Positions 24,941-30,447 of a stretch of DNA of 64,000 nt are shown in pieces; position 1 is the first letter of the stretch, and each line of letters begins with the position of its first letter. The stretch is from the NCBI GenBank assembly GCA_913043275.1, contig CAJWLL010000006.1, forward strand, positions 1 through 64,000, in the 5' to 3' direction. The notes under the pieces are model-generated. The model was not told where the DNA came from. It made no database searches and saw only the letters and a list, made by a program, of their open reading frames with translations. This stretch comes from an uncultured Flavobacteriaceae bacterium. GTDB lineage: Bacteria > Bacteroidota > Bacteroidia > Flavobacteriales > Flavobacteriaceae. The translations under genes were made by a program, and so were the position numbers.

Positions 24941-25660
24941 ATGAAACAAAACATTAAAATTTCTGGTATGACATGCAAGGATTGTGTTTCCTCTGTGACT
25001 GAAAAATTAATTAGTTTGGATGAGGTAAAAGACCTCAAAATTGATTTGGAAAATGGAATTGCAGAGTTGGAGGTTTTAAAAACATTGACATTGGAAAAAC
25101 TGTCCGTTGTATTACTCCCAAAGTACATACCTACAATGGAAAACCAACCCTTTAATAAAGCATTCTTAGAGCAAAGTCCTTCGAAGTTAAAGCAGCTTTT
25201 TCCGCTTTTTTTCATTTTTTTATACCTGATTGCGGGTTCTGTTTTACTTCAAAGGAACACTTTCCGCTTCACAAATTTTATGATTGATTATATGGGGTTA
25301 TTTTTTGTGGTTTTCAGCTTCTTTAAATTTTTGGACTACAAGGGATTTCCCTCTGCTTTTGCCCAATACGATCCCTTGGCCAAAAGAATCGTTTTCTATG
25401 CTAAAATTTATCCCTTTATCGAGACCCTTTTGGGTTTGATGTTCTTGTTGCGTTGGGAGTTGAATTTTGCCTTTTTCGCCACCATTGTAATTTTATCGAT
25501 TACCACTTTAGGAGTTGTTTTTACCCTATTTGACAAAAACAAAATCAACTGCGCCTGTTTGGGAACATCCTTGAAGTTGCCAATGACGGAAGCGTCTTTG
25601 ATAGAGAATGTAATCATGATTATGATGGCTGTTGCCATGCTATTTTACCAATTTGGATAA
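24941..25660 (+). CDS. HMA domain fused to MauE/DoxX-like membrane domain
   Basis: A 239-residue fusion. Residues 1-65 form a heavy-metal-associated domain with the metal motif GMTCKDC (Cys12, Cys15). Residues 80-239 form four membrane helices of MauE/DoxX type (FPLFFIFLYLIAGSVLL; FMIDYMGLFFVVFSFFKFLDYKGF; YPFIETLLGLMFLL; FFATIVILSITTLGVVFTLF). After the last of these comes CACLGTSLKLPMTEASLIEN, a conserved Cys-x-Cys segment also seen in MauE-like proteins. The domain combination suggests that a bound metal ion, probably copper, is handed to a membrane partner or affects a thiol-redox protein. It is the first gene of the metal locus, and it diverges from purH. Confidence 0.82.
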   Translation: MKQNIKISGMTCKDCVSSVTEKLISLDEVKDLKIDLENGIAELEVLKTLTLEKLSVVLLPKYIPTMENQPFNKAFLEQSPSKLKQLFPLFFIFLYLIAGSVLLQRNTFRFTNFMIDYMGLFFVVFSFFKFLDYKGFPSAFAQYDPLAKRIVFYAKIYPFIETLLGLMFLLRWELNFAFFATIVILSITTLGVVFTLFDKNKINCACLGTSLKLPMTEASLIENVIMIMMAVAMLFYQFG

Positions 25661-25678
25661 AATCCATAAATTTATAGT

Positions 25679-26092
25679 ATGAATACTAGGAATTGCAAAG
25701 CCGTTTTATTAACCTTGATTTTTTTGACTTCAAAAATCGGGCTGGCTTTAAATGTCCACTATTGTGGAGGTCATATTGAGGAAATTGCTCTGGCTTGGAA
25801 TGCCGAGGGTTGTGAAATGTCTGCGCAAAAAGTCCAAGAGCCCCGCCAAGATTATAAGTTTACAAAGAACCACTGCTGCAAGGATCAAACTATTTTTATC
25901 CAAAACAATGAGCCTCAAAAAACGGCAGATTATGAACTTCATTTTGCTTTCTTTGGGATTTCACCGAACAAGCCCTTCCAGTTTGATGCCTCAAAAATGA
26001 TCCTTTTAAAGACGGTTTTTACCCCACCTAAATTTCTTGTTCCTAAGAACAAAATCTTCCTCCTTTACCAAAGCCTTATTTTTTACGGTTGA
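25679..26092 (+). CDS. HYC_CC_PP family cysteine-rich exported protein
   Basis: A 137-residue protein with a signal-like N-terminus (KAVLLTLIFLTSKIGLALN). The family's conserved Cys and His residues follow: HYCGG (His27, Cys29), Cys45, and HCC (His65, Cys66, Cys67). A TPP motif comes near the end (VFTPPKFLVPK). The set of three motifs gives the family its name; its function is unknown. The His/Cys arrangement looks suited to binding a soft metal outside the cytoplasm. It lies 18 bases after the HMA-MauE gene and 53 before a TonB receptor, consistent with one metal-related operon. Confidence 0.82.
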   Translation: MNTRNCKAVLLTLIFLTSKIGLALNVHYCGGHIEEIALAWNAEGCEMSAQKVQEPRQDYKFTKNHCCKDQTIFIQNNEPQKTADYELHFAFFGISPNKPFQFDASKMILLKTVFTPPKFLVPKNKIFLLYQSLIFYG

Positions 26093-26145
26093 TTCAATTT
26101 AAATAAACACACTTCTTATTTAACGTTGAATCTAACCCTAAAATA

Positions 26146-28377
26146 ATGAAAAAATACATACTCATTGTATGTCTTTCATGGGGGGTGGTATATTCGCAAG
26201 ACCCCCTCAGTGGACTTTTACAATACCGACAGAACAATAAAATTTATCCCCTTTCAGGAGCCAGTGTTTTTTGGAAAAACACTACCATTGGAACGGTTAC
26301 TGATATGGAGGGTATTTTCCAGTTGGAAAGACCACCAGCAAGTGATCTGTTGATCATTAGTTATATCGGTTTTAAAACCGACACCTTAAAAATTAATACT
26401 TCATTCATCAGCCACCAAATGACTCAAAATCAGGAGTACGAATTGGACGAATTCACCGTAAACCAGCGTAGAAAAGCTTCTCAAAAATCCTTTATTGAGA
26501 CGCAAAATATTCGAAAGTTAAGCAGCGAGGAATTACTCAAGGCTGCTTGTTGTAATCTTTCGGAGAGTTTTGAAACCAACCCAGCCATAGATGTGAATTT
26601 TGCAGATGCGCTAACCGGAACCAAACAAATTAAAATGTTAGGGCTTTCGAGTCCCTACCTATTGATTTCGGAAGAAAGTATTCCTATGGTTCGGGGTGCT
26701 TCACAGGCTTATGGATTGACCTTTACGCCCGGGACTTGGGTAGAAAGTATTCAAATCAGCAAAGGGGCAGGGTCGGTAAGCAATGGTTTTGAAAGTATTG
26801 CAGGACAAATCAATACTGAATTGAAAAAACCGCTGACCGATATTCCCTTTTTTCTCAATCTATTCGCCTCAATCAATGGGAGGTATGAAATGAATACACA
26901 CTTCAATCTTAAGTTTTATGACAATTGGAGTGCTGGGCTTTATGTCCACGGTAACAAAAGAACTCAAAAGTTTGACAAAAACAACGATGGTTTTCTCGAT
27001 CTTCCTGTTTCAGAGCAAATTAATTTGATGAATCGTTGGCAATACACCGATTTAGAAAATGGATGGGTCAGCTTTTTGAGTTGGAGGTATATGAATGATG
27101 AAAAATTATTGGGTGCTTTAAGCTACAATTCTCAAAAAGATAAGGGAATGAAAAATCGCTGGGGCAGTGAAATTAAAACCGAACGATGGGATGCTTCCTT
27201 CAAGGTAGGCTATGTTTTTCCCGAGATACCCTATCAGAGTTTTGGTTTTCAAACAGCCTACAGCAGCCACATCCAAGACTCATATTACGGATTGCGTGCC
27301 TATGATATCAATCAGCAAAGTTTTTATACCAATTTGATTTTCAACTCCATAATTGGCAATACCCTCAATAAATTCAAAGTAGGGTTAAATTATAGTTTTG
27401 ATGAATATGTTGAACAGGTCGATGGTGACTTATACAATAGGTCGGATTGGAATGTGGGCAGCTTTTTTGAGTTTTATCATGACAACAATGACAACTTCAG
27501 TTGGATCGCCGGTATCAGAGTGGATTTTCACAATAATTTCGGCAGTTTTTTAACGCCAAGGATTCATGTTAGATATGTTCCGCTAGAGGATTTTGTCATC
27601 AGGCTATCGGCGGGCGGTGGCAGAAAGGCAGCCAATATTTTTGCGGAAAATCAAACCCTTTTTGCAACCAATAGAGCGATCAATATTCAATCCTCTCAGG
27701 GGAAAATTTATGGTCTTAATCCCGAAAAAGCATGGAACTACGGATTGGGTCTGTCGAAATCATTTTACATTAGTAGTCCACACAAAATGACTCTTTCTGC
27801 CGATTATTACATTACCCTTTTTACAGATCAGGTGGTTGTAGATTGGGAAGTGCCTCGTCAAATTTCATTTTATAACTTAGAGAGACAAAGCTCTGCAAAA
27901 AGCTTTCAATTGGAATTGGATTATTACTATCGAAACTTTTTGAATTTTAGAGTAGCATTCAAGAATTACGATGTACAAATGGACTATAAAAGTGGACTCA
28001 TGCAAAAACCTTTATTGGCCAAGAATCGTTTTTTTGCCAATTTAGGTTGGGAAAGTAAAATCAGCCCAATGGATAATCAATGGAGGTGGGATTTAACCTA
28101 TCACTATTTAGGGGCGCAGCGATTGGTTCACAATATTTTGGATTTGGATCACCCAAGAGGTTTTTCTCCCAGTTATTCGCTTTGGAACACCCAATTGACT
28201 CGTTCTTTCTCGAAAAAATTTGAAATATATTTGGGGGCAGAGAACATTGGAAATTATAGACAACTTTCTCCCATTATTGGATCTGACGATCCTTTTGGAG
28301 AGGACTTTGATGCTGCTCAAATTTATGCCCCCATTTTTGGAGGAATTGTTTACTCTGGTTTAAGACTCAAAATTTAA
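26146..28377 (+). CDS. TonB-dependent receptor with Cys-Cys plug motif, likely metal-related
   Basis: A 743-residue outer-membrane receptor. A signal peptide is followed by a carboxypeptidase-like regulatory (CarboxypepD_reg-like) domain (about 22-98, PLSGASVFWKNTTIGTVTDMEGIFQL, YIGFKTDTL), then a plug and a 22-strand barrel. The plug contains KAACCNLSESFETNPAIDVNFADALTGTKQIKMLGL, with adjacent cysteines 135-136, a pattern shared with receptors placed next to HMA and HYC_CC_PP genes. The barrel ends in GGIVYSGLRLKI. It has no adjacent SusD, so it is not a glycan receptor. Import of copper or a copper complex is the best guess from the neighbours, but the ligand cannot be read from the sequence. 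Confidence 0.9.
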   Translation: MKKYILIVCLSWGVVYSQDPLSGLLQYRQNNKIYPLSGASVFWKNTTIGTVTDMEGIFQLERPPASDLLIISYIGFKTDTLKINTSFISHQMTQNQEYELDEFTVNQRRKASQKSFIETQNIRKLSSEELLKAACCNLSESFETNPAIDVNFADALTGTKQIKMLGLSSPYLLISEESIPMVRGASQAYGLTFTPGTWVESIQISKGAGSVSNGFESIAGQINTELKKPLTDIPFFLNLFASINGRYEMNTHFNLKFYDNWSAGLYVHGNKRTQKFDKNNDGFLDLPVSEQINLMNRWQYTDLENGWVSFLSWRYMNDEKLLGALSYNSQKDKGMKNRWGSEIKTERWDASFKVGYVFPEIPYQSFGFQTAYSSHIQDSYYGLRAYDINQQSFYTNLIFNSIIGNTLNKFKVGLNYSFDEYVEQVDGDLYNRSDWNVGSFFEFYHDNNDNFSWIAGIRVDFHNNFGSFLTPRIHVRYVPLEDFVIRLSAGGGRKAANIFAENQTLFATNRAINIQSSQGKIYGLNPEKAWNYGLGLSKSFYISSPHKMTLSADYYITLFTDQVVVDWEVPRQISFYNLERQSSAKSFQLELDYYYRNFLNFRVAFKNYDVQMDYKSGLMQKPLLAKNRFFANLGWESKISPMDNQWRWDLTYHYLGAQRLVHNILDLDHPRGFSPSYSLWNTQLTRSFSKKFEIYLGAENIGNYRQLSPIIGSDDPFGEDFDAAQIYAPIFGGIVYSGLRLKI

Positions 28378-28401
28378 TCCTAAATATTAATTTTATACAT
28401 C

Positions 28402-28740
28402 ATGAAAAAAACCCTTTTCTTATTGCTTGCTTTACCATTGGGAATGGTAGCTCAAGAGAAACAAAAAAAGAATACCAAAACACAATTTACAGTTCATGGT
28501 AATTGTGAAAAATGTAAAAAAAGAATTGAAAAAGCTGCTTTTTCAATCAAAGGTGTCAAATGGGCCGATTGGGATATTTCTTCCAATCAAATCAGTCTGA
28601 TCTACAATCCACAAAAAGTAGACTTGAAAATGATTCATATGGGGATTGCAGCCCAAGGTCACAATACAACAGAAGCTAAAGTCAAAGAAGAAGATTATGA
28701 TGAACTGCCCAAATGTTGTCAGTACGAAAGGAAAGAATAA
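28402..28740 (+). CDS. Secreted heavy-metal-associated (HMA) domain protein
   Basis: A 112-residue protein with a signal peptide (MKKTLFLLLALPLGMVAQ). One HMA fold follows (about 28-90) with the metal motif HGNCEKCKKRIEKAA (Cys35, Cys38) and the loop GVKWADWDISSNQISLIYNP. The tail ends in LPKCCQYERKE, adding a second Cys pair. It is probably a periplasmic chaperone that passes a metal from the TonB receptor to other carriers. It sits 24 bases after the receptor, as the last gene of the operon, and a strong hairpin follows it. Confidence 0.85.
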   Translation: MKKTLFLLLALPLGMVAQEKQKKNTKTQFTVHGNCEKCKKRIEKAAFSIKGVKWADWDISSNQISLIYNPQKVDLKMIHMGIAAQGHNTTEAKVKEEDYDELPKCCQYERKE

Positions 28741-28750
28741 GTAATAAAAA

Positions 28751-28778
28751 AACCTGCTTTTTCAAGCAGGTTTTTTTT
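28751..28778. terminator. Bidirectional intrinsic terminator between HMA gene and groEL
   Basis: The hairpin AACCTGCTT-TTTC-AAGCAGGTT is followed by a run of T on the plus strand and preceded by a run of A, so it reads as a stem plus U-tract from either side. It sits in the 54-base gap between the convergent HMA and groEL genes and can stop both. Confidence 0.88.

Positions 28779-28794: not shown

Positions 28795-30447
<1,653 letters not shown>

Follow-up and report, generated by a model that had tools for sequence, protein, structure and literature searches.

A candidate copper-acquisition cassette built on a dicysteine TonB-dependent receptor in Bacteroidota

We analyzed a stretch of 64,000 nucleotides from an uncultured Flavobacteriaceae bacterium (assembly GCA_913043275.1, contig CAJWLL010000006.1, positions 1 to 64,000 of the forward strand; hereafter the window), and we describe here a group of four adjacent genes that includes a TonB-dependent receptor and three small proteins with putative metal-binding motifs. 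The source assembly is 2.0 Mb long and 88% complete. The features of this cassette are as follows.

24941..25660, + strand: HMA-MauE fusion, 239 aa, with Pfam HMA and MauE domains above cut-off; accessory member of the cassette
25679..26092, + strand: HYC_CC_PP family protein (hereafter HYC), 137 aa, NF047658; putative periplasmic metal-binding protein
26146..28377, + strand: TonB-dependent receptor, 743 aa, with a carboxypeptidase-regulatory-like domain, a plug and a beta-barrel
28402..28740, + strand: secreted HMA-type protein, 112 aa, with a signal peptide, a GNCEKC site and a C-terminal LPKCCQY motif
about 28746-28778, + strand: intrinsic terminator, bidirectional with groEL (-18.4 kcal/mol, z = -5.64), terminator-like on the - strand too

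The gaps between the four open reading frames (ORFs) are 18, 53 and 24 nt, and groEL (28795-30429, - strand) is convergent with the cassette and shares its hairpin terminator. The original prediction had described four same-strand genes at 24941-28740 closed by a strong terminator, with a receptor that has no SusD partner. Both points agree with our results: the ORFs and the hairpin (z = -5.6) are in place, and no SusD-type gene was found beside the receptor among the neighboring ORFs of the window. In addition, the paired Cys and His/Cys motifs that it quoted (GMTCKDC, CACLG, HYC, HCC, CCNLSESF, HGNCEKCKK and LPKCC) were all located.

The HMA-MauE fusion scored 34.2 bits with the HMA model (cut-off 24.8) and 64.5 bits with MauE (PF07291, cut-off 27), and it is a MauE family member with the CxC motif included. 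This protein has a cytosolic-type N-terminal HMA domain (GMTCKDC), five predicted transmembrane helices and CACLG before the last helix; hydropathy and positive-inside counts, a rough prediction, place both Cys pairs on the cytosolic side. The HYC protein belongs to the HYC_CC_PP family (66.6 bits against a cut-off of 28) and carries an N-terminal hydrophobic signal or anchor and the motifs VHYCGG, NHCCKD and FTPPKF. Its AlphaFold model was poor, with a mean predicted local distance difference test (pLDDT) score of 62.7 and a predicted template modelling score of 0.39. The secreted HMA protein contains a CxxC motif. However, it scored 21.1 bits with PF00403 against a gathering cut-off of 24.8, and its match to the CopZ model NF033795 (E = 7.5e-9) was under the cut-off of that model. 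Thus, this protein is HMA-like and not a formal member of the family.

In the receptor, the carboxypeptidase-regulatory-like domain covers residues about 34-105 and the plug about 119-220, followed by the beta-barrel, and the closest relatives of the sequence come from metagenome-assembled genomes of uncultured Flavobacteriaceae. The AlphaFold model has a mean pLDDT of 71.8 and a good barrel. A fold search against PDB retrieved TonB transporters of diverse specificity at comparable scores, among them ZnuD, OprC and transporters for B12 and siderophores, and thus it gives no pointer to the substrate. A profile search of the PDB sequences gave N-terminal-domain matches and weak Cir matches only. 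No relatives were found on viral contigs. The receptor orthologs of one genus (g2, loci L034-L038) are about 668 aa long and apparently lack the N-terminal carboxypeptidase-like domain.

The cysteines and histidines of the four proteins are strongly conserved. H27, C29, C45, C66 and C67 of HYC are conserved in 99-100% of 75 sequences, and P117 is conserved too. The residues C35, C38, C105 and C106 of the secreted HMA protein are invariant (100% of 78 homologs), with H87 conserved too, and C12, C15, C204 and C206 of the HMA-MauE fusion are present in all 29 homologs. Furthermore, the vicinal pair C135/C136 was found in 40/40 receptor orthologs, within the plug motif KAACCNL(S/A)ESF, and ACC(N/S/D/T)L(S/A)E was retained in 19/20 further receptor loci, which are mostly distant homologs. 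These two residues are the only cysteines of the receptor past the signal peptide, and the residue at +4 is S or E. The other plugs of this genome had no Cys within the stretch inspected (0/19). Judged from these alignments, the cysteine motifs of the cassette exceed chance. Meanwhile, the receptor relatives at L194 and L256 do not have the CC-N-L-S-E motif, and the adjoining HMA-like proteins have an altered metal site (GVGCSAD and GVCCNGD); this type is possibly a subfamily with a different ligand. Two same-genus relatives (L253 and L247) have a second receptor, about 300 bits to the profile, with a plug CxxC (NCSICSTG) beside a DtxR/MntR-like regulator. It is possibly another metal receptor.

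To estimate the linkage of these genes, two independent samples were used. In the first, 80 loci were fetched with the receptor as the sole bait. HYC was adjacent in 74/80, the secreted HMA protein in 76/80 and the HMA-MauE fusion in 28/80, and several of the loci counted without HYC or the secreted HMA protein are contigs that end there. In the second, 148 Bacteroidota genomes were scanned with the HYC model and the receptor profile. The receptor occurred in 36 of them; 23 of these 36 also had a HYC match, which lay within about 3 kb in 22 cases. If chance is allowed 0.3% per genome, a generous rate, the binomial tail for this adjacency is about 7e-55, a value that gives the scale and not an exact probability because the genomes are related. 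Inspection by eye of the 14 receptor genomes not scored as adjacent showed that in 10 of them the ORF directly upstream encodes a small secreted Cys-rich protein; one of these 10, at L184, is a clear HYC homolog that was overlooked by the genome scan. The co-occurrence of the families, whose absence would have spoken against the original prediction, was thus seen.

The gene order also varied. HYC-receptor-HMA, HYC-HMA-receptor and HYC-HMA/MauE-receptor-HMA were all seen, with different flanks. The trio of HYC, receptor and secreted HMA protein is present on plasmid-labelled records of Parabacteroides distasonis and Bernardetia, where the three genes are annotated as hypothetical protein, TonB-dependent receptor and heavy-metal-associated protein. 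The Parabacteroides record called plasmid 17 (L254, NZ_OY725762.1) contains ftsK, metH and smpB; it could be a piece of a chromosome with a wrong label. Furthermore, in four loci the secreted HMA protein and the receptor form one polypeptide, with the HMA part at the receptor N terminus.

L066:5483-8065, - strand: HMA-receptor fusion
L186:5605-8268: HMA-receptor fusion
L187:6589-9261, - strand: HMA-receptor fusion
L198:5394-8096, - strand: HMA-receptor fusion

Because gene order, flanks and replicons change and fusions occur, shared synteny alone does not explain the trio. HYC, the receptor and the secreted HMA protein are one evolutionary module. The original prediction had counted four genes in the unit. 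The linkage is real, but the conserved unit has three genes, and the HMA-MauE fusion is frequent yet not universal.

Upstream of 78 cassettes, a search for a shared box found only AT-rich words, and the Bacteroidetes promoter pattern occurred 11 times versus 2.0 in shuffles, a modest excess, with none in the window. Just upstream of many cassettes (e.g., L104:4922-5410, - strand) there is a divergent gene for a GAF-domain protein of about 150 aa that is similar to free-methionine-sulfoxide reductase; the window lacks this gene. A gene for a secreted Cu/Zn superoxide dismutase (L114:4340-4876, - strand) lies near a cassette with two tandem secreted HMA genes.

The neighborhoods of these genes point to a metal. 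Upstream of the receptor, 8 loci encode a P1B-ATPase that has a CPC motif and an HMA domain at its N terminus; its gene is mostly located between HYC and the receptor, where the HMA-MauE fusion is otherwise found. The P1B-ATPases tested from these loci scored 581-592 bits on the Cu-ATPase model TIGR01511 (cut-off 397), and the L119 cassette also has a CusB-like adaptor. Outside the cassette, HYC lies directly 5′ of a CusA/CzcA-family resistance-nodulation-division (RND) pump in 16/41 HYC-anchored loci. The pump of L041 scored 647 bits to CusA versus 390 bits to the zinc pump ZneA. In addition, it retains M573, M623 and M672 of Escherichia coli CusA (numbering corrected for a 7-residue tag), which we take to be the methionine triad with a role in copper export. 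A PepSY_TM gene follows the cassette in L132 (above the Pfam cut-off) and L086 (just under it); the window has none. On the basis of the Cu-ATPases in the cassettes, the position of HYC 5′ of CusA-type pumps and the PepSY_TM genes, which also occur in loci of the copper-linked receptor CrtA, copper is most likely the metal of the cassette. Beside the CusA/HYC cluster of L041 there is also a regulator of the AraC type whose N terminus is HMA-like (MVCDRC; L041:13049-13648), a candidate metal sensor.

The genus of the window organism bears on the direction of transport. CopA (Cu-ATPase) over the family cut-off was found in 0/19 genomes of this genus, 17 of which had no match at all, and CusA/CzcA over the cut-off was not found in the source genome; because most genomes of the genus are incomplete and the source assembly reaches 88% completeness, each of these absences is weak by itself, but the pattern over the 19 genomes is stronger. 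The CC receptor or part of it is kept in 16/19 genomes. In the 13 intact relatives of the genus, the HMA-MauE fusion and the secreted HMA protein adjoin the receptor in 13/13 and HYC does so in 10/13. The source genome encodes a haem-copper oxidase subunit I and three SCO proteins. Since the genus lacks CopA over the cut-off yet keeps the cassette, acquisition seems to fit better than detoxification, and these gene contents favor uptake over resistance as the putative role.

We therefore regard it as fairly probable, though well short of certain, that these genes form a Bacteroidota copper-acquisition cassette built on a TonB-dependent receptor. The receptor would bind copper or a small copper chelate and carry this cargo across the outer membrane, with the vicinal Cys at the start of the plug as a possible relay or gating site for a soft metal, Cu(I). 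In the periplasm, the secreted HMA protein may collect copper at the receptor, as suggested by the HMA-receptor fusions, and the Cys/His-rich HYC protein could be a second copper carrier alongside it. Both might hand copper to periplasmic cuproprotein assembly (Sco, haem-copper oxidase). Where present, the inner-membrane HMA-MauE fusion or a Cu P1B-ATPase might also receive copper and manage it or its redox state; the fusion would then act in copper handling or thiol redox, and a Cu-ATPase could take its place or work beside it. What the sequences show is the conserved and linked module, its fusions, the retained Cys/His sites and the association of the module and of HYC with copper genes. We infer from them the import, copper as the substrate in the source organism, the sequence of hand-over and what the HMA-MauE fusion does. 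The original prediction had proposed a relay, probably for copper, from the outer membrane through a periplasmic carrier to the membrane HMA protein. The genes are indeed an evolutionary module, copper is the best-supported metal and uptake is the best fit, but the stepwise order of the relay, its direction and the HMA-MauE fusion as its end belong to the model and not to the observations. Roughly two thirds of the cassettes lack this fusion, and in the 8 loci with a Cu-ATPase its slot is mostly taken by that gene.

Several results weigh against this copper-uptake reading. The plug of the AlphaFold model (residues 98-224) has a pLDDT < 50, and thus the CC pair is not placeable in the channel. 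HYC is missing from 3/13 intact cassettes of the genus. The loci with a Cu-ATPase belong mostly to a single Maribacter/Zobellia-type clade, so these neighbors may represent one or two independent events. In L041, HYC follows a P-type ATPase of the cadmium/zinc family, so the metal of HYC may be broader than copper. Finally, to our knowledge, Parabacteroides is an anaerobe without a haem-copper oxidase. Since it has the trio, a role in respiration is not universal.

The same data can be read in other ways. The receptor and the two periplasmic proteins might buffer or sense excess periplasmic copper beside Cus/Cop and be induced by copper excess. The CopA and CusB genes within some cassettes, HYC directly 5′ of CusA pumps and the many Cys-rich proteins would agree with such a resistance or sensing role. 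However, TonB-dependent transporters are energized importers, and the cassette is retained even though no CopA of the genus and no CusA of the source genome exceeds the cut-offs, so we consider this role unlikely. Somewhat less likely again is that the receptor takes up a different metal of soft or borderline type, such as Zn, Ni or Cd/Hg, or a metal complex, such as a thiol-containing metallophore. In this case, the HMA and HYC proteins would be thiol carriers of a general type. MerP and ZntA proteins have HMA domains as well (weak MerTP matches were obtained here), and the cadmium/zinc-family ATPase of L041 points the same way. Nevertheless, ten P-type ATPases encoded near HYC or the receptor were tested and every one scored as copper-type, the adjoining RND pump of L041 retains the Met triad, and no mer gene is present among the annotated neighbors.

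It might also be supposed that there is no functional unit at all, and that the genes are independent and share only a syntenic block conserved near groEL/purH. Many Flavobacteriaceae loci indeed have the purH/mreB and groEL flanks in common. However, the trio is retained where order, flanks, family or replicon differ, and it also occurs with fused genes. The fused and rearranged loci already largely refute this explanation, and we consider it highly improbable. At the other end, the copper-acquisition reading can be widened to a Bacteroidota-wide import system, in which a new dicysteine-plug receptor family would work with a contact-coupled HMA chaperone and HYC, and the HMA-MauE fusion would be a new inner-membrane copper importer or copper-thiol redox protein. 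We propose this tentatively, and it is more doubtful than not.

Copper uptake by Gram-negative bacteria is poorly known, and the experimentally supported outer-membrane copper importers that we found in the literature are all from Proteobacteria. The cassette occurs in about a quarter of the sampled Bacteroidota genomes (36/148), has a diagnostic CC motif in the receptor plug and includes a chaperone that in some cases is fused to the receptor. Thus, for a phylum dominant in marine and gut environments, it offers a candidate copper-acquisition system that can be tested directly, and it could provide the so far unexplained HYC_CC_PP family with an initial functional context.

The original prediction knew of no described pathway joining the four families. 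Our literature search, which covered few subscription journals, agrees with it: we found no mention of the HYC_CC_PP family and no description of the cassette in work on MauE with copper or on HMA with TonB receptors. Among known systems, MerT/MerP and MerTP also have a membrane protein fused or paired with an HMA domain and a secreted MerP-like HMA protein. However, the MerTP model gave 25.1 and 24.0 bits against a cut-off of 180, the membrane part is MauE and not MerT, and no mer-like gene lies among the neighboring ORFs. SusC/RagA receptors share the N-terminal carboxypeptidase-regulatory-like extension, but the cassette receptor scored 57.9 bits with TIGR04056 (cut-off 368), has no SusD beside it and is shorter.

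The copper-linked TonB-dependent transporters are closer. CrtA (BfrG) of beta- and gamma-Proteobacteria is encoded in small operons. Some of these include genes for periplasmic copper chaperones, and PepSY_TM adjoins in >75% of loci; the CrtA logos show conserved His without conserved Cys or Met (PMC12914433). The cassette resembles it in the PepSY_TM gene of two loci. Nevertheless, the partner set and the taxa differ, the CC pair is invariant, and PepSY_TM is limited to those two loci and absent from the window, so we rejected membership in the CrtA family. OprC of Pseudomonas aeruginosa is a TonB-dependent outer-membrane copper transporter with a CxxxM-HxM metal site, whose plug Cys143, a metal ligand, lies about 70 residues after the Ton box; HYC or HMA partner genes are not reported for it in the available part of that paper (PMC8610252). 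The cassette receptor also has a plug Cys, but with about 30 residues between the likely Ton box and its CC pair, this pair is not the OprC site. An OprC-type site was also rejected because the window receptor has no CxxxM (C135/C136 with S or E at +4). In the Flavobacteriaceae, G2EC70 of Bizionia argentinensis, encoded near CcoG, was proposed for copper uptake by its OprC similarity and CxxxM-HxM motif, and the same survey lists HMA proteins with signal peptides as putative periplasmic CopZ (PMC11213822). G2EC70 is OprC-like, unlike the cassette receptor, and the HYC-receptor-HMA cassette is not described in the available part of that survey. Taken together, the cassette would best be labelled an uncharacterized TonB-dependent copper-acquisition system of Bacteroidota, a variant that differs from both OprC and CrtA.

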